In this document: positions 13,247 to 54,503 of the stretch, in pieces
Numbering within the stretch: position 1 is the stretch's first letter
Layout: every line of letters starts with the position of its first letter
Source: Aerococcus urinae
Lineage (GTDB): Bacteria; Bacillota; Bacilli; Lactobacillales; Aerococcaceae
Direction: 5' to 3'
Assembly (NCBI RefSeq): GCF_001543175.1
Contig: NZ_CP014161.1
Location: 1,674,001-1,738,000, forward strand
DNA length: 64,000 bases
Notes under the pieces: model-generated
Seen by the model: only the letters and a program-made list of their open reading frames with translations
Databases searched by the model: none
Told to the model about the DNA's origin: nothing
Translations under genes and position numbers: made by a program

Positions 13247-13434
13247 AGTTGTATTCCAAGTGCAGAGCTAGCTCTACTTCAGAAGTCTTGCTCTTTAATG
13301 CACTTGTCACACTTCCTAGTCGAGTTCGGACGCCAGTCTTGAAGTTGCTTCAGAAAATTCCAACGCACACTTTCGTGTGCTTATGGTATTTTCCTCCAGC
13401 AATTCAAGTCTCTGACGGCGTCCTCACATCCTTT
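13247..13434. repeat. Composite palindromic repeat: beta remnant plus alpha hairpin
   Basis: 13318-13433 is a complete alpha hairpin. The arm GACGCCAGTCTTGAAGTTGC with TTCAGAAAATTCCAACGCACAC pairs imperfectly with GTGTGCTTATGGTATTTTCC plus TCCAGCAATTCAAGTC and GACGGCGTC. It ends CTCACATCC just before the stop codon at 13437-13439. 13247-13317 is a shortened beta repeat (AAGTGCAGAGC, CACTTCAGAAG, CTTGTCACAC). Confidence 0.75.
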
Positions 13435-13436
13435 TT

Positions 13437-16400
13437 TTAATGTAGAGATTCATCCTTCTTGCTGATTGTAACCAATCCTGTTCCAGTGAGCAATAAGGCA
13501 GCTGCTAAGAGAACTGGAAGGGTGGAGTCAGCTTCTGAACCTGTTTTTGGCAGGCTGGTTGCTTGACTCTTCACTTCAGCTACTTCTTGCTTGGCTTCTT
13601 GACTAGGCAAAGCATTATTGTCATGAATACTTAATGACGCATTTTCGCTAGCTTTGAAGGCTTTAGGATAAGTGAGTGTATAGGTCTTCACCGACGTATC
13701 CTTCTTCTTGTGCAGGCTGGTTGTCACCAGATAGTCTGAATGTTCACTAGGGATTTCTTCTTGAACTTTGTCTCCCATTTCTTCCTCTGTTTTTCTTGGA
13801 CGAGGACCTGCTGGAGCTGCTGGACTTGGCTTCTCATGAGGAATTTCCGGCGTTTTTTCCTTGTCCTTAGGCTTAGGTTTGTCCCCTTGATCAGATGGTT
13901 TGTCTGGAGTGGCTGGTTGGTCGTGTTTACCAGGTTTGTCTGGAGTTCCTGGTTGATCTGGGGTTCCTGGTTTTTCAGGAGTTTCTGGTTTACCTTTTTT
14001 ACCAGGCTTATCTGGACTCGGTTGGTCTGGATGGGATGGTTTGCTTGGGTTTGGACATGTCCCGCAGACATTACCCGCAACTTCGATACTGTAGTCGGTG
14101 TAAACTACAATGAAGTCGCCATTGTCGGTAAGCTTGACATTCTTAATGCCCCGGCCATCTTTTCCGTCTTTGCCGTCTTTACCATCGCGACCGTCACGAC
14201 CATCCTTACCGCGAACAAGACCAGCGTCAATGGTCCGACCATCGTCAAGACTAATGATCAAGTGGCCGGCTTCATCAACCTTGGCATCTTTAATGCCGCC
14301 TTGATTTGGACGAGGGATCACTTGAGTGGTGTGGTTGCTGTTGATAATCACAAGATCACCGTTATTGTTGACCGTAATCTTCTCGACCCCTTGAGCATCC
14401 TTACCGTCTCTACCATCACGACCGTCACGGCCATCCTTGCCATCTTTACCGTCTTTGCCGTCGCGAACGAAGACTTGGCGGATGACTTCTCCAGTTTTCG
14501 GATTCTTATAGATAATCTTGGTGCCTGGTTGTTTAGGATTGTCGCTTGGCTCAGTTTCGATGATTGGGGTTTGACCATCTTCACCATTATAGATAAATTC
14601 TCGACTTAAGAGCTTACCCTTGCGGTCGGTTAAGGAAATTTCAACCCCGATTTGTTTACCATTCTTATCGAAGACTGGCTTGATATCAGGAGTTAGGCCA
14701 TCTTGACCGTCCTTGCCATCTTTTCCATCTTTGACAAAGACTTTGCTGAATGTTTGCCCCGTCTTTGGATGGATGAAGCTGATGTAATGGCCTTTTTCAC
14801 CCTTTTCATTGGTGGCTGGAGTGGTTTCAACTTTAGGCGACTCGCCATCCTTACCATCAGAGATAAAGGTCTCGCTGATCACTGCCCCAGTTTCTGGATT
14901 TTTGACAAGAATATAGGCACCTGTTTGCCCTGCACGGTCTTGGCCTGGCTTGGTCTCAACAATTGGCGCCTTGCCATCCTTGCCGTCTCTTCCGTCTTTT
15001 CCATCTTTACCGTCTCTGACAAAGCTTTCAGAGATGACAGCTCCAGTCTCTGGATGTTTAACCAGGATCTTAGTTCCGCTATGTCCTTGGCTGTCTTTTC
15101 CTGGTAAGGTTTCAACGATTGGGGCTTTGCCATCCTTACCGTTAGTGATGGTGACTGATTTTTGCTTGCCATTCGTTTTGGTAATTGTCACAACATGGTT
15201 GCCATTAGCATCGGTTGTTACATCAACATCTGGGGATTTACCGTCTTTTAACTCAGTGACTTCAGGTGTGTCATCCGAAACCGAACGATCTGTACCACGA
15301 ACTTGTGGTGTTACTGTGATGATAACCCCATCGTTAGTAGCATTCCGGCGGGCTGTAATTTTAGGTGCTAAACCGTCTAGACCATCCTTAACAATGGCTC
15401 TGGCAACAGGTTCCTTAGAGGTGTCCACCTTACCCGTTTCTGGGTTGACTGGGTAGAAATTAATTAGATTCCCATAGGAGGTTCTTTCTACCACTGGCAG
15501 GTAGGTCTTGCCGTCCTTACCGTCTTTACCGTCTTTACCGTCGCTTCCGGCGATACCTTGGGCGCCACGTTCACCGCGGTCACCCTTGTCACCTTTTTCA
15601 CCTTTATCGCCTTTTGCGATGGTGAGGACGGTGCCGTCGGATAAGGTAACGAGGGTGTTGCCTTGGTCGTCTTTAGCAGTGTGGGTGACGGTAAGAGATT
15701 TGCCGTCTTTACCATCTTTACCATTGGTCCCAGCGACACCTTGAGCGCCGGTTTCACCGCGGTCGCCCTTATCACCTTTATCACCTTTTTGGCCGTTTTT
15801 CACTTCAAATGAAGTCGTGCTGCCGTCAGGGTTCTTAATAGTGATAGTGTGACCATCTGGGGTTTCAGCGGTTGAGACTTCTGGGGACTTCCCATCTACA
15901 CCGTCTTTACCGTTAGCTCCAGCTGCTCCTGTGTCACCTTTATCTCCCTTGGCGCCTTTTTCGCCTTGTGGACCTTGGTCACCTTTGTCCCCTTTTGCAA
16001 TATTGAGAACTGTGCCATCAGATAAAGTAACGACTGTATTGCCGTCTTTATCTTTTTCGGTCTTGGTTACTGTTAGTGGAGCGGCGTCTTTACCATCGCT
16101 TCCATTTTTACCATCTTTGATAGTTGTGGTAGTTGTTGAGCCGTCCGGATTGGTGATAGTGATGGTGTGAGATCCATCGCCGTTATCTTTGGTTGAGATC
16201 AGTGGGGATTTTCCGTCTGCACCAGCTGCTCCTTGAGCGCCACGTTCACCTTGCAGACCTCTTTCACCGCGGTCTCCTTTGTCACCCTTTTCACCTTTTT
16301 GGCCGTTCTTGACTTCAAATGAGGTAGTTGTGCCATCTGGGTTCTTGATAGTGATAGTGTGACCGTCTGGGGTTTCAGCGGTTGAGACTTCTGGGGACTT

Positions 16401-19400
16401 CCCATCTACACCGTCTTTACCGTTAGCTCCAGCTGCTCCTGTATCACCTTTATCCCCCTTGGCGCCTTTTTCGCCTGGAAGACCTTGGTCACCTTTGTCC
16501 CCTTTTGCGATGTTTAAGACTGTGCCGTCAGATAAAGTAACGACTGTATTGCCGTCTTTATCTTTTTCAGTCTTGGTAACAGTTAGTGGAGCGGCGTCTT
16601 TTCCGTTGGCTCCAGCGGCACCTTGAGCGCCGGTTTCACCGCGGTCCCCCTTGTCACCTTTATCACCCTTTTGGCCATTCTTCACTTCGAATGAAGTTGT
16701 GCTGCCATCTGGATTGGTGATGGTGATGGTGTGAGAGCCGTTACCGTTATCTTTGGTTGAGATAGTTGGAGATTTGCCGTCTACACCATCTTTTCCATTG
16801 GTTCCAGCTGCGCCTTGATCCCCTTTTTCTCCTTTAGCACCATCTGGAATAAAGATGTTGTTGGTGGTTTCAAAGGTATCTGGGTTCTTGATACGCAACC
16901 AGGTCCCTGGAACTTTCTTGGTACTGTCAGAGAAACCGCGTTGGGCGAATACGATTGGCGATTTGCCATCTTTTCCTGGGGATCCGGCTTGACCTTTTTC
17001 ACCGTTCTTTACGACGAATGAAGTTGTTGTCCCATTTGGATTCTTGATGGTGATGGTATGACTGCCGTCAGCATTTTCGGTAGTGGAAATTTCTGGGGAT
17101 TTGCCGTCTAGGCCGTTCTTTCCGTCTTTTCCGTTGGTTCCAGCAGCTCCTTGTGCGCCGGTTTCTCCACGATCTCCCTTGTCACCTTTATCGCCCTTGT
17201 CACCTTTTTCACCTGGAAGACCTTGTGGCCCTTGAGCACCTGGTTCACCTTTGGCTCCATCTTTGATTTCACCTGTGGCAACCGCTTCTTTACTGGTGTC
17301 AGCCTTACCGGTTTCTGGGTTTACTGGATAGAATTTGATAGTAGTTACGCCATTATTGTCTTTTGTGATCACTGGGGCGAAGGTCTTGCCGTTGTCACCT
17401 GCAACCCCTTTATCTCCTTTGATACCATCATGGACTTCCACGGTTTGTGGTTTACCGTCAACAATATTCCCTTTGTCATCACGGATTTGTGGGGTAATAG
17501 TTAAAGTGACACCATTGTTGGCATCGCTCCGTTTAGCAGTTACTTTTGGAGCCAGACCATCTTTTCCAGCAAGGCCTTGGGCACCGGCTTCACCTTTAGC
17601 TCCATCTTTGATATCGACACTTTGTGGGATGCCATCTACAATGTTCCCTTTGGCGTCACGACTTTGTGGAGTAATGGTGAGGGTTACACCGTCATTGGCC
17701 TGATTACGAACGGCGCTTACTTTCGGTGCTAGGCCGTCTTTGCCGTTTGCTCCAGCTTCACCTCTATCACCCTTATCACCTTTTTGGCCGTTCTTGACTT
17801 CAAATGAAGTCGTGCTGCCGTCTGGATTCTTAATGGTAATTGTGTGGCCATCTTTTGTTTCAGCGGTTGAAATTTCTGGGGACTTACCGTCTGCGCCATC
17901 CTTACCTTTTTCGCCTTGTGGTCCTTGAGCGCCGACTTCACCTTTGGCTCCGTCCTTGATTTCACCCGTGGCAACCGCTTCTTTAGTCGTATCAGCTTTG
18001 CCGGTTTCTGGATTTACTGGATAGAACTTGATGGTTGTTACGCCATCTTTGTCTTTTGTAAGGACTGGGGCGAAGGATTTACCATTATCACCTGCTAGGC
18101 CACGTTCACCTTGGTTTCCTTTTGGACCTTGAGCACCAGTGTCACCCTTATCACCTTTGGCACCATCGGGAATAAAGATGTTGTTAGTCGTTTCTAGGGT
18201 GTCTGGGTTCTTGATCCGTAACCAGGTTCCGGGCACTTTCTTCGTATTATCAGAGAAACCGCGTTGGGCAAATACAACTGGCGATTTGCCGTCTTTACCT
18301 GGCGCTCCGGCTTCACCGTTTTTCACAACAAATGAAGTAGTCGTGCCGTTTGGATTCTTGATGGTAATGGTGTGAGTGCCGTCAGGATTTTCAGCGCTGG
18401 AGATTTCTGGTGACTTACCGTCTACGCCATTCTTACCATCTTTTCCGTTGGTTCCTGCAGCTCCTTGAGCACCGCGTTCCCCCTGGTCTCCCTTGTCACC
18501 CTTTTGACCTTGTGGGCCTTGAGTACCTGTGTCACCTTTATCTCCCTTGGCACCTTTTTCGCCTGGGAGACCTTGATCACCCTTGTCCCCTTTTGCGATA
18601 TTTAAGACTGTGCCGTCAGATAGAGTAACGACTGTATTGCCATCTTTATCTTTTTCAGTCTTGGTGACAGTTAGTGGAGCGGCGTCTTTACCATCCTTAC
18701 CGTTAGTTCCTGCGACCCCCTGTTCACCGTTCTTAACAGTAAATGAGTTGGTGGTACCATTCGGGTTCTTAATAGTGATGGTGTGGCTGCCGTCAGGATT
18801 TTCAGCACTAGAGATTTCTGGTGACTTACCGTCCACACCATCTTTCCCTTTTTCACCTTGAAGACCTTGTGGCCCTTGAGCACCCTGTTCACCTTTGGCT
18901 CCATCTTTGATTTCACCTGTGGCAACAGCTTCTTTAGTAGTATCAGCTTTGCCGGTTTCTGGATTCACCGGATAGAACTTAATGGTGGTTACACCATCTT
19001 TATCTTTTGTAACAACTGGGGCATAGGATTTACCGTCGTCACCTTTTAGACCATCGTGGACTTCAACGGTTTGTGGTTTACCATCAAGGATATTGCCTTT
19101 GTCATCACGGATTTGTGGGGTAATAGTTAAAGTGACGCCATTGTTAGCTTCATTTCGATCAGCGCTTACTTTTGGTGCCAGACCGTCTTTCCCAGCAAGC
19201 CCTTGAGCTCCAGCTTCACCTTGGGCTCCGTCTTTGATATCCACAATTTGTGGGGTGCCATCTACAATGTTTCCTTTGTCGTCACGACTTTGAGGGGTGA
19301 TAGTGAGGGTCACACCATCATTAGCCTTATTACGAACGGCGGTTACTTTTGGTGCTAGACCGTCTTTGCCGTTTACGCCAGCCGCACCGGTGTCGCCCTT

Positions 19401-22400
19401 TTCACCCTTGGCACCTTTTTCACCATTCTTCACAACAAATGAAGTGGTCGTGCCGTTCGGATTCTTAATGGTGATTGTGTGTCCTTCTGGAGTTTCAGTG
19501 GTGGAAATTTCTGGAGACTTGCCGTCTGCGCCATCCTTACCTTTTTCGCCTTGTGGTCCTTGAGCGCCGACTTCACCTTTGGCTCCGTCCTTGATTTCAC
19601 CCGTGGCAACCGCTTCTTTAGTCGTATCAGCTTTGCCGGTTTCTGGATTTACTGGATAGAACTTGATGGTTGTTACGCCATCTTTGTCTTTTGTAAGTAC
19701 TGGGGCGAAGGTCTTGCCGTTAGCTCCTGCAGCACCACGTTCACCTTGTAGACCTCTTTCGCCTCGGTCACCCTTATCCCCTTTTGGACCTTGAGCACCT
19801 GGCTCACCTTTTAGCCCTTGAGCACCTTTTTCACCGTTCTTCACGACGAATGAATTGGTAGTACCATTTGGATTCTTGATGGTGATGGTATGAGTGCCGT
19901 CTGCGTTTTCGGCACTGGAAATTTCTGGTGACTTGCCATCTAGGCCGTTCTTACCATCTTTTCCATTGGCTCCCGCAGCTCCTTGGGCGCCGGTTTCTCC
20001 ACGATCTCCCTTGTCACCCTTTTGACCTTGTGGACCTTGAGCACCTGTGTCACCTTTATCTCCCTTGGCACCTTTTTCGCCTGGGAGACCTTGGTCACCT
20101 TTATCACCTTTTGCGATATTGAGGACTGTGCCATCAGATAAGGTAACAACTGTATTGCCTTCTTTATCTTTTTCAGTCTTGGTAACAGTTAGTGGAGCAG
20201 CATCTTTTCCATCTTTACCGTTAGTTCCAGCAACCCCATTTTCACCGTTCTTAACAGTAAATGAGTTGGTGGTACCATTCGGGTTCTTGATAGTGATGGT
20301 GTGGCTGCCGTCTGCGTTTTCGGTGGTAGAAATTTCTGGGGACTTGCCGTCCACACCATCTTTCCCTTTTTCACCTTGTGGGCCTTGAGCGCCGGCTTCA
20401 CCCTTTTCGCCACGCTCACCTTGTAAGCCTCTTTCACCTTGATCACCTTTTAGACCTTGCGGACCTTGAGCGCCTGGTTCACCTTTAGCGCCATCTTTGA
20501 TTTCACCTGTAGCAACCGCTTCTTTACTGGTGTCAGCCTTACCGGTTTCTGGGTTCACTGGATAGAACTTGATGGTGGTTACGCCATCTTTATCTTTTGT
20601 GAGCACTGGAGCAAAAGATTTCCCATCGTCACCTTTTTGACCATCTTTGACTTCAACAGTTTGTGGTTTACCGTCAAGGATATTGCCTTTGTCATCACGA
20701 ATTTGAGGAGTGATGGTTAAAGTGACACCATTGTTAGCCACATTTCGCTCAGCTGTTACTTTTGGTGCTAGACCGTCTTTACCAGCAAGCCCTTGGGCAC
20801 CGGCTTCACCTTTAGCGCCATCTTTGATGTCGACACTTTGTGGAGTACCGTCAACGATCTTGCCTTGGGCGTCACGACTTTGAGGCGTGATGGTGAGAGT
20901 TACCCCATCATTGGCTTGGTTACGAACAGCGGTTACTTTTGGCGCAAGGCCGTCTTTACCATCAGCACCCGCTGCGCCTTGAAGACCACGTTCACCTTGG
21001 TCACCTTTTTGGCCGTTCTTGACTTCAAATGAAGTCGTGCTGCCATCTGGGTTCTTGATGGTGATGGTGTGTCCATCTTTTGTTTCCGTGGTTGAAACTT
21101 CTGGGGACTTGCCGTCAGCGCCTTTTTCGCCTTGTGGCCCTTGAGCCCCTGCTTCTCCTTTAGCGCCATCTTTAATTTCACCGGTAGCAACGGCTTCTTT
21201 GCTGGTATCAGCTTTACCGGTTTCTGGATTCACTGGATAGAACTTGATGGTGGTTGTGCCATTATTGTCTTTTGTGAGCACTGGGATGAAGGATTTACCA
21301 TTATCACCTGCAACACCACGTTCACCTTGTGGGCCTTGAGCGCCGGTTTCACCTCTTTCACCTTTAGCACCGTCTGGAATAAAGATATTGTTGGTGGTTT
21401 CTAAGGTCTCTGGATTCTTAATGCGTAACCAGGTTCCTGGAACTTTATTAGTATTGTCAGAGAATCCACGTTGTGCTGAAACAATTGGTGATTTGCCATC
21501 TTTACCTGGGGCTCCGGCTTCACCTTTTTGGCCGTTTTTCACGACAAATGAAGTGGTCGTGCCGTTTGGATTCTTGATGGTGATGGTGTGACTGCCATCT
21601 GCGTTTTCGGCGCTAGAGATTTCTGGGGACTTGCCGTCTGCGCCATTCTTACCATCTTTTCCGTTGGTTCCTGCAGCTCCTTGAGCGCCGGTTTCACCTT
21701 TATCTCCCTTGGCACCTTTTTCGCCTGGAAGACCTTGGTCACCTTTGTCACCTTTAGGACCTTGTGGGCCTTGAGCTCCTGTGTCTCCTTTTAGACCTCG
21801 ATCCCCTTTGGCTCCATCTTTAATTTCCACTGTTTGTGGTGTTCCAGATACGATATTGCCTTTTTCATCTCGAGACCGTGGGGTGATGGTTAGGGTGACA
21901 CCGTTATTATCTGGGTTACGCTTAGCTGTTACTGTTGGTTCAAGGCCGTCTTTACCATCGACACCATTCTTGATTACTGTGCTATTGGTTGAACCATCTG
22001 GATTGGTGATTGTTAATGTGTAGCTACCATCACCGTTATCCTTAGTTGAGATGGATGGGGACTTGCCATTTTCGCCATCTTTTCCTTTTTCACCTGGGGC
22101 GCCTTGTGCACCTGTGTCTCCTTTTGGACCTTGGGCACCGGTTGCACCTTGTAGTCCTCTTTCTCCTTGGTCACCCTTGTCCCCTTTAGGACCTTGAGCG
22201 CCTCTTTCCCCTTGGGGACCGCGTTCACCATCTTTGATTTCACCTATGGCAACGGCTTCTTGGCTGGTGTCGGGCTGGCCGGTTTCTGGATTCACTGGGT
22301 AGAACTTGATGGTGGTTACACCGTTTTTGTCTTTTTTGATAACTGGTGCGAAGGTTTTACCATCTTTACCGTTTCTGATTGTAGCTGAGTGGGTGGTCCC

Positions 22401-24638
22401 ATCGACATCTTTAACTTTTACGGTATAGGTGTCATCTTTATTATCCACCCAGTCAATTTCAGGAGACTTGCCATCCTTACCATCTGCAATAACGGCTTGG
22501 TGGCTGGTTCCATCGGGGTTAGTAATCTTTATTGTATAAGAATTTGGCTCTTGGGGATTTTTCTTCTCATTTTTAACAATGGCTAAGCGTGGCGTTCCAC
22601 CGTCTTTTCCTGGTTCACCTGGAGCACCTTGAGGCCCTTGGGCACCGGTATCACCTTTAGCACCGTCTGGAATGAAGGCAGTCTTGGTTTCAGTGGTTTT
22701 ATTGCCCTCTTGATCATATTTTGGATAGGTAAAGGTGACATAGGTTCCCTTTTTGCCATCTTTTTCCCCAGGCTTGGTTTGGACATCGATAGCCAGATCT
22801 GGGAGAGCTGAACCAGTTCCTTCAAGAATGACTTCATCTTGACGCTTAATCAATTCCTTGGAATTCTTCTTGGTGTAGTAATCGGTAAAGTTGTCTTCGG
22901 TTAAGTTCTCATCGCCTAAGACATCACGGGTTTGTTCATAAATCACGCGGTTGACGCCGTCATGGCCGGTTTGTTTAACCACGCGGACACCCTTAGGAAG
23001 GAGAGGGGTTGTCTCGACCGATGAGCTGTGCTTGTCAGTTTCAGTACGCACTTCATAATGCTTAATCTTGCGAAAGGCTGTGTCAACCACTTCATCTTTC
23101 TTAAGATTCTTAATGATTTTTTCCGTGCCGACAAATTGCTTGCCTGCCTTAACCGTGGAAAAACGATTGGGTTCTTCAAATTTCACCACATAGCTATTGT
23201 ATCCAGGTAATTCTTCAAAAGTATAACGGCCATTCAGGTCGGTGGTTGTGCTGGCTAGCAATTTCCCATCGTCAGGGTTGTAGAGGTTGACCTTAATGTT
23301 ACTTAGGGTTTGGTCGCCAGTACTTGAACCATCACCATTGCGGTCATCATAGACTGTCCCAGAAATTTTATAGATATCAACAATTTGTGGAACGTTCGTT
23401 AGTGGTAGTCCATCAAGAACATTGAAAGTACGTTCTTTATTTTTATACGCTCTTTTTACCGATTCTCTAGTGAAATCGTTCAGAACGATAGGTTTGCCAT
23501 TTCTATCTACATAAGTTATTTCAATTCCAGAATTAGCATAATCATTTAATTGAGTCCCTGGTAACACTTTTAGTGGAAGATGATTTTTAGGAATCCTAAC
23601 AGTTACCTTATCTTCAGCAGTATTTATTGGAATTTCTTGTGGTTTTTCCTCTGGGTCTCCGTCAGGATAAGTAACAATTACTCTAGCTCCAACAGCAGAC
23701 AATTGCTTGCCAATGCCATCAACAAAACCAATGTAAAATTCTTTGCTAGCTAAGGTTAAATTACCATTTCCCTTTTCATTGACAATTTGAGGAGAGTGAC
23801 TAATGACTGCTCCAAATTTGCTATCAACAGAAACTTCTTTGCTTGTTCTTCCATCTGTTACTCGAACCTTATCACCATCACGCAATTCTTTGACGGCGCC
23901 TAATGGAATTTTCCAATAACCATCGGACTCAGCAACAGTCTCTCCAATTGGCGTTTCTACACCATCATGGATATAAACTGCCTTAATGGTTTTACCTGCT
24001 TCTGCTTGACCACCAAAATAATCTTGGTAACGTTGGCCATTCTTATCCCCTTCAAGATTCTCATTTTCAATTCTTAATGAATTAGCCTGATTATCAGTAA
24101 CCACAGGCGGTTGATCGTTTTCTGGCGCTTCATAAGTAGTCGCAAGTGTTTCTTCTGGAGCAAGACTTGTTGTTTCTTCTATCGAACTTGAAGTTAGATC
24201 GTTACTTGGCGCTGATGTGCTTGTCACTTCAGCTTTTGGAGTTTCTGGAAGAGAAACGGCTGTTGGACTGGCTGGGGTATTTTCATCTAAGGGAAGCGCG
24301 GCTGGCTGATTGTCATTTTCTTGAGGACTTACTGGCTGACTTGCTGTAGCCTTTTTGTCAACGGCTTGACCCTTGTCCGAACTAGCTAAGTCAGCTGGAC
24401 TGATTTGTCCTTGACTTGAGCTTAGCCCTTGGTCTTGACTACTTGGAAGGCTGACTTTTGTTTCAGCGGCGGCTGCTTCATTAACGGCGGCTTGAGCTAC
24501 CGCAGCGTCTCCCATAAAGAGCAAACCAACAGCGACTGCCACAGAAGCCACTCCGATATTTAAGCGTTTAATAGAATAGCGATAGAATTTATTCGCCATT
24601 TTTTCACGGTATAATTTGACATTGTTCTTTCCTAACAT
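13437..24638 (-). CDS. Giant LPXTG-anchored collagen-like mosaic surface protein
   Basis: The 3733-aa product has a YSIRK-like signal (YSIKRLNIGVASVAVAVGLL), a Ser/Thr/Pro-rich stretch to about 180, Ig-like folds, and an SdrB-type domain (ISGTVYDDRNGDGSS, LNGRYTFEELPGY) near 430-510. About 2800 residues of repeats follow, alternating Gly-X-Y collagen tracts (GPQGERG, GPKGDKGDQG) with beta-type modules. The module heads are KSPEISTTENADGSHTITIK, FAPVLTKDKDGVTTIKFYP, GLAPKVTAVRN, APLTVTKTEKDKDGNTVV and VPGTWLRIKNPETLETTNN. It ends with DGRDGRDG runs, a lone CGTC, a Pro/Lys wall-spanning region and the sortase signal LPKTG, hydrophobic helix and charged tail. It is presumably an adhesin. It starts 16 nt after the lectin-like gene with AAGGAG, so is likely co-transcribed. 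Confidence 0.9.
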   Translation of the reverse strand: MLGKNNVKLYREKMANKFYRYSIKRLNIGVASVAVAVGLLFMGDAAVAQAAVNEAAAAETKVSLPSSQDQGLSSSQGQISPADLASSDKGQAVDKKATASQPVSPQENDNQPAALPLDENTPASPTAVSLPETPKAEVTSTSAPSNDLTSSSIEETTSLAPEETLATTYEAPENDQPPVVTDNQANSLRIENENLEGDKNGQRYQDYFGGQAEAGKTIKAVYIHDGVETPIGETVAESDGYWKIPLGAVKELRDGDKVRVTDGRTSKEVSVDSKFGAVISHSPQIVNEKGNGNLTLASKEFYIGFVDGIGKQLSAVGARVIVTYPDGDPEEKPQEIPINTAEDKVTVRIPKNHLPLKVLPGTQLNDYANSGIEITYVDRNGKPIVLNDFTRESVKRAYKNKERTFNVLDGLPLTNVPQIVDIYKISGTVYDDRNGDGSSTGDQTLSNIKVNLYNPDDGKLLASTTTDLNGRYTFEELPGYNSYVVKFEEPNRFSTVKAGKQFVGTEKIIKNLKKDEVVDTAFRKIKHYEVRTETDKHSSSVETTPLLPKGVRVVKQTGHDGVNRVIYEQTRDVLGDENLTEDNFTDYYTKKNSKELIKRQDEVILEGTGSALPDLAIDVQTKPGEKDGKKGTYVTFTYPKYDQEGNKTTETKTAFIPDGAKGDTGAQGPQGAPGEPGKDGGTPRLAIVKNEKKNPQEPNSYTIKITNPDGTSHQAVIADGKDGKSPEIDWVDNKDDTYTVKVKDVDGTTHSATIRNGKDGKTFAPVIKKDKNGVTTIKFYPVNPETGQPDTSQEAVAIGEIKDGERGPQGERGAQGPKGDKGDQGERGLQGATGAQGPKGDTGAQGAPGEKGKDGENGKSPSISTKDNGDGSYTLTITNPDGSTNSTVIKNGVDGKDGLEPTVTAKRNPDNNGVTLTITPRSRDEKGNIVSGTPQTVEIKDGAKGDRGLKGDTGAQGPQGPKGDKGDQGLPGEKGAKGDKGETGAQGAAGTNGKDGKNGADGKSPEISSAENADGSHTITIKNPNGTTTSFVVKNGQKGEAGAPGKDGKSPIVSAQRGFSDNTNKVPGTWLRIKNPETLETTNNIFIPDGAKGERGETGAQGPQGERGVAGDNGKSFIPVLTKDNNGTTTIKFYPVNPETGKADTSKEAVATGEIKDGAKGEAGAQGPQGEKGADGKSPEVSTTETKDGHTITIKNPDGSTTSFEVKNGQKGDQGERGLQGAAGADGKDGLAPKVTAVRNQANDGVTLTITPQSRDAQGKIVDGTPQSVDIKDGAKGEAGAQGLAGKDGLAPKVTAERNVANNGVTLTITPQIRDDKGNILDGKPQTVEVKDGQKGDDGKSFAPVLTKDKDGVTTIKFYPVNPETGKADTSKEAVATGEIKDGAKGEPGAQGPQGLKGDQGERGLQGERGEKGEAGAQGPQGEKGKDGVDGKSPEISTTENADGSHTITIKNPNGTTNSFTVKNGENGVAGTNGKDGKDAAPLTVTKTEKDKEGNTVVTLSDGTVLNIAKGDKGDQGLPGEKGAKGDKGDTGAQGPQGQKGDKGDRGETGAQGAAGANGKDGKNGLDGKSPEISSAENADGTHTITIKNPNGTTNSFVVKNGEKGAQGLKGEPGAQGPKGDKGDRGERGLQGERGAAGANGKTFAPVLTKDKDGVTTIKFYPVNPETGKADTTKEAVATGEIKDGAKGEVGAQGPQGEKGKDGADGKSPEISTTETPEGHTITIKNPNGTTTSFVVKNGEKGAKGEKGDTGAAGVNGKDGLAPKVTAVRNKANDGVTLTITPQSRDDKGNIVDGTPQIVDIKDGAQGEAGAQGLAGKDGLAPKVSADRNEANNGVTLTITPQIRDDKGNILDGKPQTVEVHDGLKGDDGKSYAPVVTKDKDGVTTIKFYPVNPETGKADTTKEAVATGEIKDGAKGEQGAQGPQGLQGEKGKDGVDGKSPEISSAENPDGSHTITIKNPNGTTNSFTVKNGEQGVAGTNGKDGKDAAPLTVTKTEKDKDGNTVVTLSDGTVLNIAKGDKGDQGLPGEKGAKGDKGDTGTQGPQGQKGDKGDQGERGAQGAAGTNGKDGKNGVDGKSPEISSAENPDGTHTITIKNPNGTTTSFVVKNGEAGAPGKDGKSPVVFAQRGFSDNTKKVPGTWLRIKNPDTLETTNNIFIPDGAKGDKGDTGAQGPKGNQGERGLAGDNGKSFAPVLTKDKDGVTTIKFYPVNPETGKADTTKEAVATGEIKDGAKGEVGAQGPQGEKGKDGADGKSPEISTAETKDGHTITIKNPDGSTTSFEVKNGQKGDKGDRGEAGANGKDGLAPKVSAVRNQANDGVTLTITPQSRDAKGNIVDGIPQSVDIKDGAKGEAGAQGLAGKDGLAPKVTAKRSDANNGVTLTITPQIRDDKGNIVDGKPQTVEVHDGIKGDKGVAGDNGKTFAPVITKDNNGVTTIKFYPVNPETGKADTSKEAVATGEIKDGAKGEPGAQGPQGLPGEKGDKGDKGDKGDRGETGAQGAAGTNGKDGKNGLDGKSPEISTTENADGSHTITIKNPNGTTTSFVVKNGEKGQAGSPGKDGKSPIVFAQRGFSDSTKKVPGTWLRIKNPDTFETTNNIFIPDGAKGEKGDQGAAGTNGKDGVDGKSPTISTKDNGNGSHTITITNPDGSTTSFEVKNGQKGDKGDKGDRGETGAQGAAGANGKDAAPLTVTKTEKDKDGNTVVTLSDGTVLNIAKGDKGDQGLPGEKGAKGDKGDTGAAGANGKDGVDGKSPEVSTAETPDGHTITIKNPDGTTTSFEVKNGQKGEKGDKGDRGERGLQGERGAQGAAGADGKSPLISTKDNGDGSHTITITNPDGSTTTTTIKDGKNGSDGKDAAPLTVTKTEKDKDGNTVVTLSDGTVLNIAKGDKGDQGPQGEKGAKGDKGDTGAAGANGKDGVDGKSPEVSTAETPDGHTITIKNPDGSTTSFEVKNGQKGDKGDKGDRGETGAQGVAGTNGKDGKDGKSLTVTHTAKDDQGNTLVTLSDGTVLTIAKGDKGEKGDKGDRGERGAQGIAGSDGKDGKDGKDGKTYLPVVERTSYGNLINFYPVNPETGKVDTSKEPVARAIVKDGLDGLAPKITARRNATNDGVIITVTPQVRGTDRSVSDDTPEVTELKDGKSPDVDVTTDANGNHVVTITKTNGKQKSVTITNGKDGKAPIVETLPGKDSQGHSGTKILVKHPETGAVISESFVRDGKDGKDGRDGKDGKAPIVETKPGQDRAGQTGAYILVKNPETGAVISETFISDGKDGESPKVETTPATNEKGEKGHYISFIHPKTGQTFSKVFVKDGKDGKDGQDGLTPDIKPVFDKNGKQIGVEISLTDRKGKLLSREFIYNGEDGQTPIIETEPSDNPKQPGTKIIYKNPKTGEVIRQVFVRDGKDGKDGKDGRDGRDGRDGKDAQGVEKITVNNNGDLVIINSNHTTQVIPRPNQGGIKDAKVDEAGHLIISLDDGRTIDAGLVRGKDGRDGRDGKDGKDGKDGRGIKNVKLTDNGDFIVVYTDYSIEVAGNVCGTCPNPSKPSHPDQPSPDKPGKKGKPETPEKPGTPDQPGTPDKPGKHDQPATPDKPSDQGDKPKPKDKEKTPEIPHEKPSPAAPAGPRPRKTEEEMGDKVQEEIPSEHSDYLVTTSLHKKKDTSVKTYTLTYPKAFKASENASLSIHDNNALPSQEAKQEVAEVKSQATSLPKTGSEADSTLPVLLAAALLLTGTGLVTISKKDESLH

Positions 24639-27562: not shown

Positions 27563-27722
27563 ATCAAAACTTGTTCTTCGACACGCTTGTCGCACTCTAT
27601 CCAAACCTGCTCCAAGCGCAGAGCAAGCGTCCGCTTCAGAAAAAGGCGCTAAATTCTCTTTGAGATTTTAGACGCCTTTTTCTTCCAGCGGTCTTGCTCT
27701 TCGATGCGCTTGTCGCACTCTA
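27563..27722. repeat. Intact beta-type palindromic repeat, overlapping trxB stop
   Basis: The core stem AAAAAGGCG/CGCCTTTTT with CTAAA/TTTAG is flanked by TTCAG and TTCCAGC, then by outer arms AGCGCAGAGCAAGCG and CTTGCTCTTCGATGCGCTT. It ends GTCGCACTCTA, where CTA is the complement of the trxB stop. A further arm copy (CTTCGACACGCTTGTCGCAC) lies at 27575. This is the clearest uninterrupted beta copy. Confidence 0.75.
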
Positions 27723-32843: not shown

Positions 32844-33091
32844 AGAGAGTGTGACAGTCACAACAAAGGACGAAATCGCTGGAGGAAAATACCATAAGCA
32901 CAGCTATGAGGATGTGAGGAAGGATCAGGGAGGGAGATTCCTTGGAGGAAAAGATGATAAGATCAGCTTGCTGATCGTTCAACTTTTCTGAAAGGACATC
33001 CCCTCACCCTTCCAAACTCAACTGTCTGTGTGTTGGTATTTTCTGAAGCGGACGTTCGTCCTGTGACTGGAACACGTTTTGAGAGTGTGAC
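32844..33091. repeat. Nested palindromic repeat: delta hairpin inside gamma hairpin
   Basis: The outer gamma arms are AGAGTGTGACAGTCAC with GGACGAAATCGCTGGAGG at the left. At the right are TTTTCTGAAGCGGACG, TCCTGTGACTGGAACACG and GAGAGTGTGAC. Inside the gamma loop, 32908-33023 is a delta hairpin: GGATGTGAGGAAGGATCAGG, GAGATTCCTTGGAGGAAAAG and GATGATAAGATCAGC pair with GCTGATCGTTC, CTTTTCTGAAAGGACATCCC and CCCTTCC, ending AAACTCAACT. Located between the liaZ-like terminator and the hprK promoter. Confidence 0.75.
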
Positions 33092-34120: not shown

Positions 34121-34377
34121 AGAGTGCGACAAGCGCATCAGAAGGCAAGACCACTGGAAGAAAAAGACGTAAGAATTCTCAAAAAGGATGAGAGGGCGCC
34201 GCTAAAGACTTGAATTGCTGGAGGAAAATACCATAAGCACAGAAAACTGTGCGTTGGAATTTTCTGAAGCAACTTCAAGTCTGGCGCACGAACTCAACTA
34301 GAGAATTTGTCGTCATTTTCTGAAGTGGACGCTTGCCTTGCGCTTGGAGCATGTTTGGATAGGATGTGAAAAAGCCT
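34121..34377. repeat. Nested palindromic repeat: alpha hairpin inside beta hairpin
   Basis: The beta arms are AGAGTGCGACAAGCGCATCA, GACCACTGGAAGAAAAAGAC and GAATTCTC at the left. At the right are GAGAATTT, CATTTTCTGAAGTGGACG and CTTGCGCTTGGAGC. The beta loop holds an alpha copy at 34183-34300, starting AAAGGATGAGAGGGCGCC and ending GGCGCACGAACTCAACTA. The alpha apex is AAGCACAGAAAACTGTGCG. The element abuts the sbcC stop codon. Confidence 0.75.
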
Positions 34378-42979: not shown

Positions 42980-43159
42980 ATGACTAAAGTATTATCCGCT
43001 AGATTAATCAAAATTGGTAATAGTCAAGCGATTATTTTAAGTAAAACTGCTTCCGAACTCGCAAACTTTCACGTGGGTGAGCCTGGGACTTTTGTCACAC
43101 TCTTTAGGACGCTTAATCCCAACATCTACCATGATTTATCTTTTTCTTCTCATTTTTAA
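42980..43159 (+). pseudogene. Truncated MazE/AbrB-type antitoxin fragment
   Basis: An ATG at 42980 behind AGAGGA opens a 59-codon frame. The first 35 residues (TKVLSARLIKIGNSQAIILS, then KTASELANFHVGE) are the swapped-hairpin DNA-binding domain of MazE/AbrB antitoxins. The C-terminal part (PGTFVTLFRTLNPN onward) is unlike any antitoxin. At DNA level it contains TTTTGTCACACTCTTTAGG, an end of the gamma palindrome. No toxin gene follows. I read it as a broken antitoxin gene. Confidence 0.6.
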
Positions 43160-43242: not shown

Positions 43243-43640
43243 TGTCACAGTCTATTTAAAACGTGTTCCAGTCACACTCTACTCAAACGTGTTCCAGTCA
43301 CAGGACGACCGTCCGCTTCACACAGGGTGTGAGACTTGGCGCCTAGACTTGGATGATTGGAGCAAGTCAGAATAAAAGCGAAACATTCGCTTGTTTCTGA
43401 CTTGTGAAATCACTCCAAGTCTGCCAAGTCAAACCCAACTAAAAACTGGTAACGCTCAGACTAGTTGAGTTCGTACGCCAGACTTGAAGTTGCTTCAGAA
43501 AATTCCAACGCTCAGACTAGCTGAGCTTATGGTATTTTCCTCCAGCAATTCAAGTCTTTTGACGGCGTACTCACATCCTTATAACTGAGCTTATACCAGT
43601 TTTCTCCAGCGATTTCGTCCTTTATTGTGACTGTCACACT
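43243..43640. repeat. Composite repeat: gamma carrying alpha and epsilon hairpins
   Basis: An outer gamma runs from GTTCCAGTCACAGGACG (43302) to CGTCCTTTATTGTGACTGTC then ACACTCTA at the phosphoesterase stop. Its loop (CGCTCAGACTAG and ATAACTGAGC) contains an alpha copy at 43463-43582. Its left arm is split by an epsilon hairpin at 43325-43441 (GGTGTGAGACTTGGC, GATTGGAGCAAGTCAGAA; TTCTGACTTGTGAAATCAC, GCCAAGTC, ending CCCAACTA). Further gamma end fragments (GTGTTCCAGTCACACTCTA) lie at 43270-43301. Confidence 0.75.
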
Positions 43641-45533
43641 CTACTTCTCTTTCTTAATCCCGTAAGAATCAACTAATTCAACGGTCCGTTCTTCCCCTTC
43701 GTGGAGGTTACCGCTCATTTCATAGAATTCGATTAAGAATTCATCTTCGGTGACGGTGTAAACCGCGAAGTTTTGGTTTTGGGATTGACGGAAGTTTTCG
43801 TGTTTGTGGTCGAATTTTGGTGATTCGTCGGGTTGTTTAGCCACATCGAAGAGACCGTTCCAGAGCTCAACATCATCTTCAGTCATCCAGTCTAATTTAG
43901 GACGGACTTTGTGAACATGGTCAGCCCCCTTCATGTAGATGGCATCATAGGCCTTAGTTCCTGAGGTATTCGGGATGATGTAGGTCACGCCTTCTGGGTT
44001 CACGTGGTATTCCACCCCATCTTTTTCGACTTTTTCGGTGTCTTCAACTTCCCCATAAGAGAAGTTATCGGAGGTGTAAACCAGGGACTTAGTCCGGGTT
44101 AAGTTGTGGTCGTGACCTTGGAGAACCACATCAACATCGAGTTCGTCCGCTAATTTAGCGAATTCTTCCCGGGTCACTTGAACGTCCTCATCTTGGAGGG
44201 CGTGGTAGGAAGCTGAGTAAATGGGTTTGTGGTAGGCCAGGATGATCCAGTTAGCTCCTGCATCACGGGCTGCTTGGATATCTTGCTTGGCCCATTCCAT
44301 TTGTTCCTTACCGATAGCGCCTTGTTCAGGATTATCTTCCGATTCCTTATTGTCGTTGGTGTTTAAGACCACAAAGTGAGCGCCGTTGTAGTCGTAGGAA
44401 TAGTAGGAGCCCCCGGTCATAGCATCGTTAGTAATTGGCACATTGGTATGTTCGTTGAAGGCGGTTAAGTCCTTTTCATCCCCTAGAACCGTGTATTCAT
44501 CGTGGTTACCTGGGGTGTAGGCATGAGGTAAGTGGAGGTTTTGGTCTTGAGACATATCCAAGTTGTCTACCCACTCATCTTCCACTTCGGCCACTTCAAC
44601 AAAGTCCCCAGTATGGAGGGCAAAGTCTGCGTCTGGCGCAACTTCTAGGGCATGGGCTAAAGTATCGGCCCCGTAAGCGGCCTCGTTATTGACATTAGCA
44701 TTCCAATAAGCATTCTGGGTATCGGTATAGTGGATAAATTGGAAAGGCTCGCCCTTTTCACCGGAAGTTCTAAAGGATCCAGTCTTAGAATAGCCCCCCT
44801 CGTCAGAACCGACTTGGTAGTAGTATTGGGTGTCGGGTTCGAGGTCATCGGCCTCTGCCTTATAGGAGTATTCTGTCACATCTTGGAGTTCCAAGTAACC
44901 TAAGGAGCTCCCTTCAGAAGTCCATTCGGTATTGTCTGGTGTAATTTGTTCGTCGGTGAAGTAACCTTCAACTTCTTTTGGTGCACCATTCTCGTCAACA
45001 ATGAAATTACCCTCGTCATCTTTTTTCGCCGCCGCATAGATATAGTAGCCATCCTTGTCGCGCTCGGCATATTCAGAAGTCACTTCGGTCGCTTCTGCAG
45101 CAAATTCAACTGGATCGGACATATCTTCAGATTTGGACACTTTCACCTTGGCATCTGGCATTTTGTCGGTGGTATACCAGTTAAAGCCCATGGCATCCGT
45201 GGTTTCTTCCAGGAGGTTGGTGGCAATCCGGTTAGGTTCATTATTGACAGGAACCGGTGCCACTTCAGGTTTATCGTCTTGGAGTTCGATTAAATCTAAG
45301 CCATTCTCTTCCCCATAGACTGGGTCAACTTCCTCGGACCCTTTACCTTCTTTAGAATCCTTGGATTCCTTAGCGCTTTCTTGCGAACTATTATCCCCTG
45401 AAGCCACGCTCTCTTCAACTGCACTATCGGCCGAAGCATTATCGCTGTTGTCATTCGTTTCGGCGCAGGCTCCCAAGACAAAAATCGAAGTCAGCAAGAG
45501 CCCCACTTTCTTAATACGATCATCCCAATGCAT
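43641..45533 (-). CDS. Secreted lipoprotein metallophosphoesterase, purple-acid-phosphatase-like
   Basis: The 630-aa protein has a lipoprotein signal (VGLLLTSIFVLGAC) and an acidic Ser/Glu linker. A fibronectin-like N-terminal domain (DLEPDTQYYYQVGS) is followed by a calcineurin-type phosphoesterase domain with motifs HYTDTQN, LHTGDFVE, PGNHDEY, LAYHKPIYS and LQGHDHNLTRT. This architecture fits a cell-surface purple acid phosphatase-like enzyme releasing phosphate. ATG 45533 has GGAG 11 nt upstream. Four direct repeats resembling a Pho box lie before the -10 region. The TAG stop is shared with a gamma palindrome. Substrate is not known. Confidence 0.85.
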   Translation of the reverse strand: MHWDDRIKKVGLLLTSIFVLGACAETNDNSDNASADSAVEESVASGDNSSQESAKESKDSKEGKGSEEVDPVYGEENGLDLIELQDDKPEVAPVPVNNEPNRIATNLLEETTDAMGFNWYTTDKMPDAKVKVSKSEDMSDPVEFAAEATEVTSEYAERDKDGYYIYAAAKKDDEGNFIVDENGAPKEVEGYFTDEQITPDNTEWTSEGSSLGYLELQDVTEYSYKAEADDLEPDTQYYYQVGSDEGGYSKTGSFRTSGEKGEPFQFIHYTDTQNAYWNANVNNEAAYGADTLAHALEVAPDADFALHTGDFVEVAEVEDEWVDNLDMSQDQNLHLPHAYTPGNHDEYTVLGDEKDLTAFNEHTNVPITNDAMTGGSYYSYDYNGAHFVVLNTNDNKESEDNPEQGAIGKEQMEWAKQDIQAARDAGANWIILAYHKPIYSASYHALQDEDVQVTREEFAKLADELDVDVVLQGHDHNLTRTKSLVYTSDNFSYGEVEDTEKVEKDGVEYHVNPEGVTYIIPNTSGTKAYDAIYMKGADHVHKVRPKLDWMTEDDVELWNGLFDVAKQPDESPKFDHKHENFRQSQNQNFAVYTVTEDEFLIEFYEMSGNLHEGEERTVELVDSYGIKKEK

Positions 45534-48947: not shown

Positions 48948-49195
48948 CGTCGCACTCTATTAAAACCTGCTCCAGGTGCAGATCGATCTCCACTTCAGAA
49001 ATATTTGGCAATCCTTTTCAAGGATTTCCGCATATTTCTTCCAGCGTTTCGCTTTTTTGTCATCAGCTCGCACTCTATAGTTGAGCTCGGTCGCCAGTCT
49101 TGAAGTCGCTTCAGAAAATTCCAAGGTACAGTTTCCTGTGCTTATGGTATTTTCTTCCAGCGATTCAAGCCTTTTGCGGCGACCTCACATCCTTA
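48948..49195. repeat. Composite repeat: beta followed by alpha after rihC
   Basis: Alpha (49079-49195) starts directly at the rihC stop: on the minus strand TAAATAAGGATGTGAGG and then GCTTGAATCGCTGGAAG, apex CACAGGAAACTGT, ending GCGACCGAGCTCAACTATAG. A divergent beta (48948-49078) follows with stem AAATATGCGGAAATCCTTG and CAAGGATT-type loop (AAAAGGATTGCCAAATATTT) between CGCTGGAAG and CTGAAGTGG. Confidence 0.7.
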
Positions 49196-50173: not shown

Positions 50174-50440
50174 TCTTCGTCCTTTGATGTGACTGTCGCA
50201 CTCTAGTTGAGCTCGGAAGGGTGAGGGGATATCCTTTCAGAAAAGTTGAACGATCAACAAGTTGAGTTCGGTTGCCAGTCTTGAAGTCACTTCAAAAAAT
50301 TCCAACGCACAGTTCCCTGTGCTTATGGTATTTTTCTCCAGTGATTCAAGACTTTAATGGCGCCCTCACATCCTTATAGCTGATCTTATCATCTTTTCTT
50401 CCAAGGAATCTCCCTCCCTGATACTTCCTCACATCCTTAT
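50174..50440. repeat. Nested repeat: alpha hairpin inside delta hairpin, with gamma end
   Basis: The delta left arm CGGAAGGGTGAGGGGATATC, CTTTCAGAAAAGTTGAACG and ATCAAC (50214-50257) is separated from its right arm (CTGATCTTATCATC, CTTTTCTTCCAAGGAATCTC, CCTCCCTGATACTTCC; 50381-50430) by a complete alpha at 50261-50378. Compare the uninterrupted delta at 32908. A gamma end (CGTCCTTTGATGTGACTG, TCGCACTCTA) lies at 50178-50206. The unit sits between the nupC stop (50443) and the rihC start. Confidence 0.75.
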
Positions 50441-50442
50441 CC

Positions 50443-53951: not shown

Positions 53952-54170
53952 TTGGAAGTTCAAGTTAGACAAGTTGGGAATTCATTAGTTCTTCCCCTAC
54001 CTAACAACGATAAGCTTAGCGTGGGAATGAAATTTTCGGTTGCATGTCACAATAGTGGCGCCATTGTCTACACCCCAGTCAAAGAGAACCTCTTTGAAAA
54101 CCCAGCTATCTTAAAATATGCTGACGACTATAGACAAAATGAACTTTTACTAGAAGAGGATATCGAATAA
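53952..54170 (+). CDS. MazE/AbrB-type antitoxin, orphan
   Basis: A 72-aa protein starting at TTG 53952 with a perfect AGGAGG 8 nt upstream. EVQVRQVGNSLVLPLPNND, LSVGMKFSVAC and AIVYTPVKENLFENPAI give the swapped-hairpin DNA-binding domain followed by a short acidic tail (LLLEEDIE), as in MazE-type antitoxins. It lies 37 nt after fbp and is closed by its own terminator. No toxin gene follows or precedes. Confidence 0.72.
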   Translation: MEVQVRQVGNSLVLPLPNNDKLSVGMKFSVACHNSGAIVYTPVKENLFENPAILKYADDYRQNELLLEEDIE

Positions 54171-54186
54171 AATTTTTTGCGACAAG

Positions 54187-54220
54187 AAAAGGACTAGGTG
54201 TCAATTCCTAGTCCTTTTTA
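54187..54220 (+). terminator. Terminator after the MazE-like gene
   Basis: AAAAGGACTAGG pairs perfectly with CCTAGTCCTTTT around an 8-nt loop, ending in five T. It is close to symmetrical and may also stop minus-strand transcripts. Confidence 0.78.
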
Positions 54221-54249
54221 ATGTGTACAGTTTATGCAGAATGTGTTTT

Positions 54250-54503
54250 AATCACACTCTATCCAAACCTGCTCCAGTCACAGGACGAACGTCCATTTCA
54301 AAAACTGCCAACGCTCAGGCTAGTTGAGTTCGTACGCCAGCCTTGAAGTTGCTTCAGAAAATTCAAGTCTTTGACGGCGTTCTCACATCCTTATAGCTGA
54401 GCTTATGACAGTTTTCTCCAATTGCTATAGCTGTTCGAAGCGTTAGCGAGTTACAGATATAGTATGCGTAGCGTTTTCGTCCTCTAGTGTGACTGTCGCA
54501 CTC
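54250..54503. repeat. Composite repeat: gamma with shortened alpha and foreign insert
   Basis: Gamma arms are CTCCAGTCACAGGACGAACG with AAAACTGCCAACGCTCAGGC at the left and TAGCTGAGCTTATGACAG, TTTTCTCC and TAGTGTGACTGTCGCACTCT at the right. The loop holds an alpha copy lacking its apex (54323-54392). The right arm is interrupted at about 54422-54468 by TATAGCTGTTCGAAGCGTTAG-like sequence resembling the interior of MITE-like copy B. It abuts the fabK-like stop. Confidence 0.7.

Follow-up and report, generated by a model that had tools for sequence, protein, structure and literature searches.

Insertion sequence IS1397 targets palindromes, inserting in the loop of REP elements. REP and REPIN palindromes, linked with RAYT (TnpA-REP), occur outside genes in high copy number, keep certain unpaired bases fixed and are believed to move as single-stranded hairpins (PMC3733652, PMC6006769). 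In the BOX repeat of Streptococcus pneumoniae, as described in PMC3049150, predictions give the inner boxB a fold that touches the outer A and C at few points, and boxB varies in copy number; the same source describes RUP, the ends of which resemble IS630-Spn1 (PMC3049150). Insertion of IS630-type elements into TA, with duplication, is reported as established (PMC2170065).

Here, related hairpin units of 113-123 nt were found at eight intergenic sites (about 13.25, 27.58, 32.84, 34.12, 43.24, 48.96, 50.17 and 54.25 kb) of a 64,000-nt stretch of the Aerococcus urinae chromosome (NZ_CP014161.1, positions 1,674,001 to 1,738,000; "the window"). All eight verify a preliminary description, which had claimed at least eight intergenic sites with imperfect palindromes of related types. 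Like BOX, these are modular intergenic hairpin repeats. However, BOX has a fixed A-B-C order with reported terminal inverted repeats and target duplications, whereas each Aerococcus unit forms an entire hairpin with ends of its own and freely varying stems, placed in loops or mixed tandem arrays (compared by description only). As with RUP and IS630-type MITEs, the units are short, intergenic and non-autonomous, and TA is common at their borders, but three orthologous empty targets are without TA and no IS630-type transposase was detected in the A. urinae genome. The fixed unpaired bases of these high-copy extragenic palindromes recall REP/REPIN; however, the latter measure 20-65 nt, no GT[AG]G tag was seen by eye at the hairpin foot in the consensus ends (AGGRTGTGAG and GAGTGYGAC) and their flanks, and no Y1 transposase was detected in the A. 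urinae genome or in its two most copy-rich relatives, G003 and G004. IS1397 shares with the units the insertion into hairpin loops. One hairpin of the family in A. tenax has an IS1182-family copy in its apical region and lacks the apical stem; the ends of this copy are unrelated to those of the units, so that IS1182 was rejected as the source of the unit ends, and its domain, PF05598, was undetected in A. urinae. At the level of listings in one open-access library, the literature searched describes no Aerococcus repeat family.

Architecture and distribution of the units

A typical unit, about 118 bases in length, folds into a single long, imperfect hairpin; its short ends and internal-loop motifs are fixed and its stems vary by paired changes, so that the shape is kept while the paired letters vary freely. 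Class A ends, AGGRTGTGAG...GAACYCRACT, hold across copies, and class B ends are typically GAGTGYGAC...GARCAGGTTTG; the consensus ends are imperfect rather than clean inverted repeats. Folded as RNA, five window units gave z-scores of -4.2 to -10.2, with none of 200 shuffles as good for each, and the 407-nt composite at 43.2 kb gave -11.0 (0 of 100 shuffles). An ungapped inverted-repeat scan missed all eight sites, because the arms contain internal loops, and found a single other palindrome. The features are collected in Table 1.

Table 1. Hairpin units and related features (window coordinates)
Feature	Position	Strand	Remarks
Zeta palindrome, separate larger hairpin type, ~177 nt	699..875	+	A. 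tenax comparison; A. tenax copy has an epsilon unit inserted at the place corresponding to 747/748
Empty site	6805..6806	.	Filled in A. tenax by a 357-bp composite of a B-type unit and a delta that holds beta in its loop
Shortened B-type unit	~13247-13313		Adjoins beta of 13318..13432
Class A unit (beta)	13318..13432	-	Model match; absent from A. tenax
Class B unit (alpha1), simple hairpin	27600..27720	-	A. tenax: solo end only
Class B host, 5' half	32846..32908	+	Genome position 1706846-1706908; A. tenax orthologue of host 32846..33078 has the same outer arms, different inner hairpin
Class A guest (delta)	32909..33023	+	Model match; apical loop of class B host 32846..33078
Class B host, 3' half	33026..33078	+	Partner of 32846..32908
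Class B host (alpha1), 5' half	34123..34184	+	
Class A guest (beta)	34185..34299	+	Model match; apical loop of alpha1
Alpha1 host, 3' half	34300..34359	+	Partner of 34123..34184
Alpha2 host, 3' half	~43284-43323 and 43441-43462		
Class A unit (gamma)	43324..43440	+	Model match; site empty in A. tenax; reverse to alpha2 host, at 3' strand of host's conserved internal loop
Class A guest (beta)	43463..43579	-	Model match; apical loop of alpha2 host; empty in A. tenax
Alpha2 host, 5' half	43582..43649	-	
Class B unit	48960..49075	-	Model match; adjoins beta 49079..49193
Class A unit (beta)	49079..49193	-	Model match
Delta host, 3' half	50206..50259	-	
Class A guest (beta)	50260..50374	-	Apical loop of delta; A. 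tenax delta loop empty
Delta host, 5' half	50378..50438	-	
Alpha2-type composite	~54250-54503		Also carries ~50-bp eta insert near 54420-54475
Internally deleted beta guest	54322..54391	-	Model match; in alpha2-type composite

In class B (24 units) 27 of 33 pairs, and in class A (21 units) 27 of 37, have changed on both sides, while the short motifs at the unit ends and internal loops stayed fixed. Among 93 distinct units from other genomes, 90.9% of the cells pair, and covariation was 0.855, compared with at most 0.148 for slid partners, in an alignment fitted to the structure; two of the five covariation measures lay near the shuffles (35 vs 33.2 pairs; 132 vs 125 types).

The A. urinae genome holds at least 126 distinct model matches at no fewer than 74 sites, and the same architecture was matched in 11 of 15 genomes of the genus (G000, which is A. 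urinae, G002-G006 and G010-G014; undetected in G001 and G007-G009, with G007 and G009 85% complete) and in 21 of 295 genomes of the order. Among searches by sequence pattern, an initial end-to-end pattern had no match in the A. urinae genome, a beta pattern none in the named genome collection or the phage records, and a gamma-type pattern matched 18 stretches, all in Aerococcus sp. HMSC062A02. The only match in the plasmid collection, A. tenax CP127381.1, was rejected as a plasmid: it carries rpoB, ribosomal protein genes and parB, is syntenic with the A. urinae chromosome, and looks chromosomal.

Nesting and unit differences between A. urinae and A. tenax

Nesting of hairpins in each other's apical loops, as originally proposed, is real at 32.8, 34.1, 43.2, 50.2 and 54.3 kb, and guests were found at the tips of four host types (alpha1, alpha2, beta and delta). 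Nesting would persist because the outer stem is not broken when a hairpin enters its loop. A script that covered 400 kb of A. urinae sequence plus 29 shorter pieces of that genome, and 450 kb of A. tenax, with classes defined by windows of a few bases round each feature, found 44 interrupted hosts. The interruption lies in the apical loop in 16 of them; in 27 it falls on a particular conserved internal loop or just 5' of it, and in 1 next to that loop. Four of the 27 were discounted, as their inserts of 288-411 bp are joins of two neighbouring units, leaving 40 interruptions (16, 23 and 1, respectively); hosts with double inserts, missed by the script, were described by hand. All 16 apical guests found, of 17 named, run in the direction of the host, and all 13 gamma units listed are reverse to theirs. 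Units also sit side by side, different ones mixed in arrays with spacers of 0-6 nt. The stretches from other species yielded only a single split unit, so that insertion into loops may be peculiar to the A. urinae complex.

Occupied and empty alleles are seen between the species: at 50.2 and 43.3 kb, and at two further loci beyond the window, the host hairpin is present in A. tenax but its loop is empty. In both directions, one species has whole units that the other lacks; they lie at unit ends (in tandem), in apical loops, and at one internal loop or next to it, and at A. tenax 283429 a unit-sized segment stands where A. urinae has no unit; these differences were read as presence or absence, unpolarised by an outgroup. 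Of the 28 listed differences, 15 match whole-unit lengths: 10 are one unit long (109-123 bp), 4 two units (238-243 bp) and 1 three units (357 bp). The other 13 involve units with the eta insert, zeta copies or gene sequence. Uninterrupted units were taken from a text pattern, and 40 of 44 could be placed in syntenic intervals: a matching orthologue (≥0.85) was found for 5, only an unrelated unit (<0.70) for 11 and no unit for 24. Orthologous places often carry unrelated units.

Inner and outer shells combine variously among copies. At orthologous loci, exchange of the inner shell shows in 1706846 against A. tenax 315016, and in G003 against G004; a single in-place exchange was also seen at locus 13, and the hosts at 1617122 and 1463195 are chimaeric, their two arms coming from different inner types. 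With such fast change of loops, an empty A. tenax loop need not equal the ancestral target, and several polymorphic nestings could be gene conversion instead of fresh insertion. With host types labelled by hand, 8 of 13 nested betas had their nearest relative in a host of the same type, compared with 1.72 expected. As nested guests resemble guests of the same host type, these sequences suggest that composites spread or convert as units, and many nested loci would then be copies or conversions of a few founding composites. Of the proposed loop-targeted transposition, the guests at four kinds of tip thus stand, and repeated independent targeting is weakened.

Target sites and candidate mobilisers

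The units had been described as bracketed by TA. This holds in part: of the 67 listed class A copies, 26 have TA before AGG, and in 44 the final T has an A after it. For class A, TA-bounded insertion is not supported by three orthologous empty targets: those of beta in delta (GATCAACTTGTTGATC), of gamma (CTTCAAAAAC) and of epsilon (CAAGCGATG) are all without TA. Alpha1 loops do not decide the matter, because forms without TA (CTCAAAGAG) and with it (CTCATAGAG) both occur. CTAG or TA as a loop target fits some loops (CTCAGCTAGTCTGAG, CACAGCTAGTCTGTG, CTCATAGAG) but fails the delta, gamma and epsilon targets. At unique sites a TA rule would still be conceivable for class B, whose left flanks there often finish in TA or GA. 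None of the insertions recovered lay cleanly in unique sequence between fully readable flanks, and an excision-frame test on apical guests did not fix a target duplication. The single guest orientation fits the REP/RAYT or IS200/IS605 mode, in which one strand inserts 3' of a fixed target tag with no target duplication, although no five-letter tag common to all targets was found by eye.

The preliminary description had named a transposase gene with matching ends as possible support. However, four families (IS630, IS200/IS605, IS110 and IS1182) were undetected in the A. urinae genome, G003 and G004 and were set aside as mobilisers: DDE_3 (IS630-type) had no match in A. urinae and, among the 15 genomes, only a weak one below the cut-off in G014; Y1 (IS200/IS605), present in G006, G010 and G014 among nine genomes of the genus searched, had no match in A. 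urinae, G003 or G004; and PF02371 and PF05598 (IS110, IS1182) had none in these last three either. Eleven loci from the DDE_3 and Y1 searches, scanned for unit ends, gave one start-like and no end-like match. PF12784 (Rpn nuclease) matched nowhere, uninformatively, as its controls were equally silent. A gene-bearing relative with matching ends was also rejected for 22 of 24 pairs of complementary arms 130-6000 bp apart, which, at 158-565 bp, leave room only for nested or neighbouring units; the other two lie 4.8 and 5.3 kb apart.

Possible origins of the family

We favour, at a probability of about 0.57, a family of non-autonomous 113-123 nt hairpin modules spread by rare insertion and reshuffled by recombination. 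These modules probably act as DNA. According to this model: a trans-acting factor would recognise the folded DNA via the fixed motifs; it would insert units at unit ends or in loops, for class A without TA duplication; and later recombination between copies would convert or swap units in place, via the conserved ends, junctions and loop motifs. A tentative and rather doubtful elaboration is shape-read mobile DNA, in which cassettes across the Aerococcaceae would be recognised via a small set of fixed bases in the loops and at the ends of a long DNA hairpin, inserted at tips or unit ends, and exchanged by a single-strand recombinase or a co-opted host enzyme.

An RNA role seems improbable. Strong covariation and fixed internal-loop motifs would suit a structured RNA family (processing or termination hairpins, for example) selected in transcripts and copied by chance recombination, as would gene orientation: in a simple ORF model with uninterrupted units only, 22 of 29 units in A. 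urinae and 20 of 28 in A. tenax are co-oriented with flanking same-direction genes, and of the occupied regions, 3 of 27 and 0 of 21, respectively, lie between divergent genes. However, of 3399 cells, 2965 are Watson-Crick, only 126 G-U and 72 A-C, more than half as many as G-U and unlike RNA selection; this mostly Watson-Crick pairing leans to DNA over RNA. High copy number, rapid turnover and nesting also speak against it, and an Rfam 15 covariance search of the window up to E 1 gave no match over the gathering score, the sole match, BSnc120, reaching 25.8 bits of the 114 needed.

Recombination without present transposition, in which homologous or template-switch events between old copies at replication-stalling hairpins produced the differences, is also unlikely: it accommodates the clustering of guests by host type, the inner-shell exchanges and the chimaeric hosts, but a unit-sized presence opposite no unit, as at A. 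tenax 283429, speaks against it, and the closely spaced mixed arrays are most easily explained by whole-unit insertion. Quite improbable are TA-target MITEs of the IS630/Tc1-mariner kind, inserting into TA or CTAG loops as RUP would in pneumococcus. The frequent TA at borders, the CTAG/TA loops and the RUP and IS630 precedents agree with them; the three empty targets without TA, the absence of a DDE_3 match in the A. urinae genome, the single orientation of loop guests and the unclean inverted repeats at the unit ends do not.

Many of the intergenic sequences by which the two compared genomes of the A. urinae complex differ are explained by hairpin units. Bacterial interspersed repeats are usually defined by sequence, whereas here shape and a few fixed bases are kept and the sequence is nearly free. 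This conservation of shape spans a bacterial family, with unit swaps visible between related species, and provides natural material with which to ask whether DNA hairpins can serve in the cell as recombination targets and substrates, and which enzyme reads them.

Architecture and distribution of the hairpin units

The preliminary description named eight intergenic hairpin sites, and hairpins were present at all eight; the family is, moreover, larger than was reported there. Two covariance models, one built from 24 aligned class B (alpha-type) units and the other from 21 aligned class A (beta, delta, gamma and epsilon) units, gave at least 100 and at least 91 matches in the whole genome at E 1e-4. 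Merged, these are at least 126 distinct matches at no fewer than 74 sites, covering at least 15,274 bases, all being lower bounds: scoring covered 150 of 1049 candidates for one model and 150 of 801 for the other, and the counts are of unsplit units. Matches occurred in 11 of 15 genomes of the genus, with the highest numbers in the relatives G003 (at least 150) and G004 (136), and in 21 of 295 genomes of the order, 18 of the 21 being from the same family. Stretches of other species, covering 20 regions and 11 loci with 12 arrays listed, show units in tandem, separated by 0-6 bases. The longest of the listed arrays consists of six units followed by the beginning of a seventh; different hairpins are mixed in some arrays, and one or two are repeated in others. 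Searches of the listings of one open-access library showed no prior description of an Aerococcus repeat family. Among known repeats, BOX and REP elements come closest; REP membership fails, and the likeness to BOX elements is one of modular hairpin form.

Both classes have a common architecture, and each model matches the other's units. Class A ends are AGGRTGTGAG...GAACYCRACT, and class B ends are typically GAGTGYGAC...GARCAGGTTTG. Read by eye from the consensus, the base of the unit is a short bulged stem, followed by a GA/GA internal loop and two variable stems, inside which lies a fixed internal loop, TGGAR // TGAAG (motif 1); further inward the inner stem, itself variable, leads to the apical stem-loop, which in many types is preceded by a second fixed loop (TAAG // CGT). 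Two-sided changes were found in 27 of 33 consensus pairs in class B (24 units aligned) and 27 of 37 in class A (21 units aligned). For 93 distinct units from other species, in an alignment fitted to the structure, 90.9% of cells were paired and the covariation score was 0.855, versus at most 0.148 with slid partners, while two of five covariation measures were near the shuffles (35 versus 33.2 pairs with two-sided changes; 132 versus 125 further pair types). Five units folded singly as RNA, and likewise the composite at 43.2 kb, fold far better than shuffles; with DNA parameters three units fold well, 1 of 200 shuffles being as good for one of them.

Empty sites, target sequence and insert positions

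The window corresponds to positions 1674001-1738000 in a complete genome 1,974,262 bases long. The A. tenax record CP127381.1, from the nearest named relative, is syntenic with the window at approximately 90% identity, and differences in occupancy run in both directions (Table). Among 28 listed presence/absence events, 10 correspond to one unit (109-123 bp), four to two units (238-243 bp) and one to three units (357 bp); the other 13 hold units bearing the element eta, copies of the separate palindrome zeta, or gene sequence. A variant in the host arm at 43.2 kb, TGGTATAAG, is shared with the A. tenax orthologue, and its retention fits insertion in place.

Features of the hairpin family and of associated elements (A. 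tenax, CP127381.1)
Feature	Position	State in A. tenax or remark
Beta in delta loop	window 50260-50374	delta host, loop empty
Beta + gamma in alpha2 host	window 43463-43579 + 43324-43440	alpha2 host empty
Delta in beta	1589452, outside window	host empty
Beta plus gamma	1857103-1857356, outside window	host empty
357-bp composite in A. tenax	window 6805/6806	empty here (opposite direction)
Epsilon in A. tenax	window 747/748	empty here (opposite direction)
Eta copy	window ~54420-54475	
Zeta	window 699-875 + other copies	separate ~177-nt palindrome family, GAGCAGTAGTGGCGCTT...GAATGCTCA

Several observations accompany this comparison. CP127381.1 (591,691 bp) is labelled a plasmid; its genes include rpoB, rpoC, parB and those of ribosomal proteins, it is syntenic with the chromosome here, and it looks like chromosomal sequence. 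An AbrB-family gene that the annotation of A. tenax shows complete (CP127381 325538-325786, the following gene extending to 326018) is truncated here (window 43040-43110). The truncation point coincides with a remnant class B end, GTCACACTCT, which makes this a hairpin-associated deletion. Window 13437-24638 is a very long, repeat-rich open frame (3733 aa) whose alignment to A. tenax is broken into many repeat matches, the gene at that place being annotated there as an SdrD B-like domain protein. Zeta has its own presence/absence differences and its own inserts, and a short class B model match (window 547-622, E 5.1e-12) adjoins it.

Three orthologous comparisons of beta and delta guests gave a net gain of 117-118 bp, and three of epsilon gave 120 bp. 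The residues left by different excision frames around the unit fit the empty loops about equally well, so that a duplication of up to about 3 bases is indistinguishable from none. Insertion at TA had been proposed. The orthologous empty targets in the delta loop (GATCAACTTGTTGATC), for gamma (CTTCAAAAAC) and for epsilon (CAAGCGATG) lack TA, and this reading is thus not supported for class A, in which 26 of 67 units have TA immediately before AGG and 44 of 67 have A after the final T. Loops of alpha1 occur both with and without TA and therefore do not decide the question; TA may have a role in class B insertion. Loops also change quickly, so that the empty A. tenax alleles may differ from the exact ancestors of the targets.

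The proposed placement of units in apical loops is real. A script run on A. tenax and own-genome stretches, which misses hosts with two inserts, found 44 split hosts. The insert lies in the apical loop in 16, at motif 1 or immediately 5' of it in 27, and beside motif 1 in one; none was found in the long stems. Thirteen of the apical inserts are 115-122 bp, the size of one unit, and three are 152-168 bp. Four of the 27 motif 1 events were discounted as joins between neighbouring units; all the remaining 23 inserts are 49-51 bp, those examined being the single element eta. Eta, of approximately 50 bp, has a near-constant internal-loop place in many hosts (24 events of 49-51 bp). Inspection by hand placed gamma at the 3' strand of motif 1, in the opposite orientation to its host, in 13 of 13 copies listed and across two inner-stem types. 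All four A. tenax epsilon copies have an identical left flank, confirmed as zeta for one of them, and three of their places are empty here. Inserts thus occupy the hairpin tip, or a conserved internal loop or its immediate border, within an alignment tolerance of a few bases.

Spread of composites, exchange in place and search for a mobiliser

Among 28 beta units, the nearest relative of a nested beta shares its host type in 8 of 13 cases versus 1.72 with shuffled labels (at least the observed value in 2 of 2000 shuffles, host labels being assigned by hand), and all three alpha1-hosted betas start with AGGATGAGAGGG. These results indicate that founding insertions were few, perhaps four of class A into apical-loop types in addition to those of gamma, eta and epsilon. 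Copying or conversion of the composites came later. Placement in loops stands, but independent loop insertions are few, which weakens the idea of repeated loop targeting.

Two chimaeric hosts (1617122 and 1463195) with unlike arms point to recombination through a shared guest. Exchange in place was seen as well. In the orthologues at 1706846 here and 315016 in A. tenax the outer arms agree and the inner hairpin differs; at 1628.0 kb the flanks agree with A. tenax and the unit between them differs; and at two loci compared between G003 and G004 flanks and unit borders are kept while stems differ. When the 44 uninterrupted units here were mapped coarsely to A. tenax syntenic intervals, 40 could be placed: five have a matching unit, 11 only an unrelated one (identity below 0.70, as for random pairs), and the remaining 24 have no counterpart.

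If selection acted on a transcript, a clear preference for G-U over A-C would be expected. Watson-Crick pairs fill 2965 of 3399 pair cells, G-U 126 and A-C 72; without the single most G-U-rich column the last two are 93 and 72. From this modest excess we infer either structure in the DNA itself or recombination that keeps the two arms alike. Under a simple ORF model, where the flanking genes share a direction, units follow it in 22 of 29 cases in this genome and in 20 of 28 in A. tenax. Regions between divergent genes hold about one-fifth of intergenic bases in both genomes, yet they account for 3 of the 27 occupied regions here and for none of the 21 in A. tenax. Such a bias is compatible with selection against promoter damage and with an RNA role.

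Neither this genome nor G003 or G004, the two with most matches, gave a hit to DDE_3, Y1_Tnp, Transposase_20 or DUF772. In the 22 of 24 pairs of complementary unit arms that were covered, the arms leave room for units only, and no gene was found between them. An IS1182-family copy in A. tenax (CP127381 563948-565477) occupies the apical region of one class B hairpin; the orthologous hairpin here (1908000-1908120) is uninterrupted. The ends of this copy are unrelated to the hairpin ends, and it was rejected as their source. The best reading is that of a non-autonomous family of hairpin modules that is conserved in shape, inserts rarely and recombines often.
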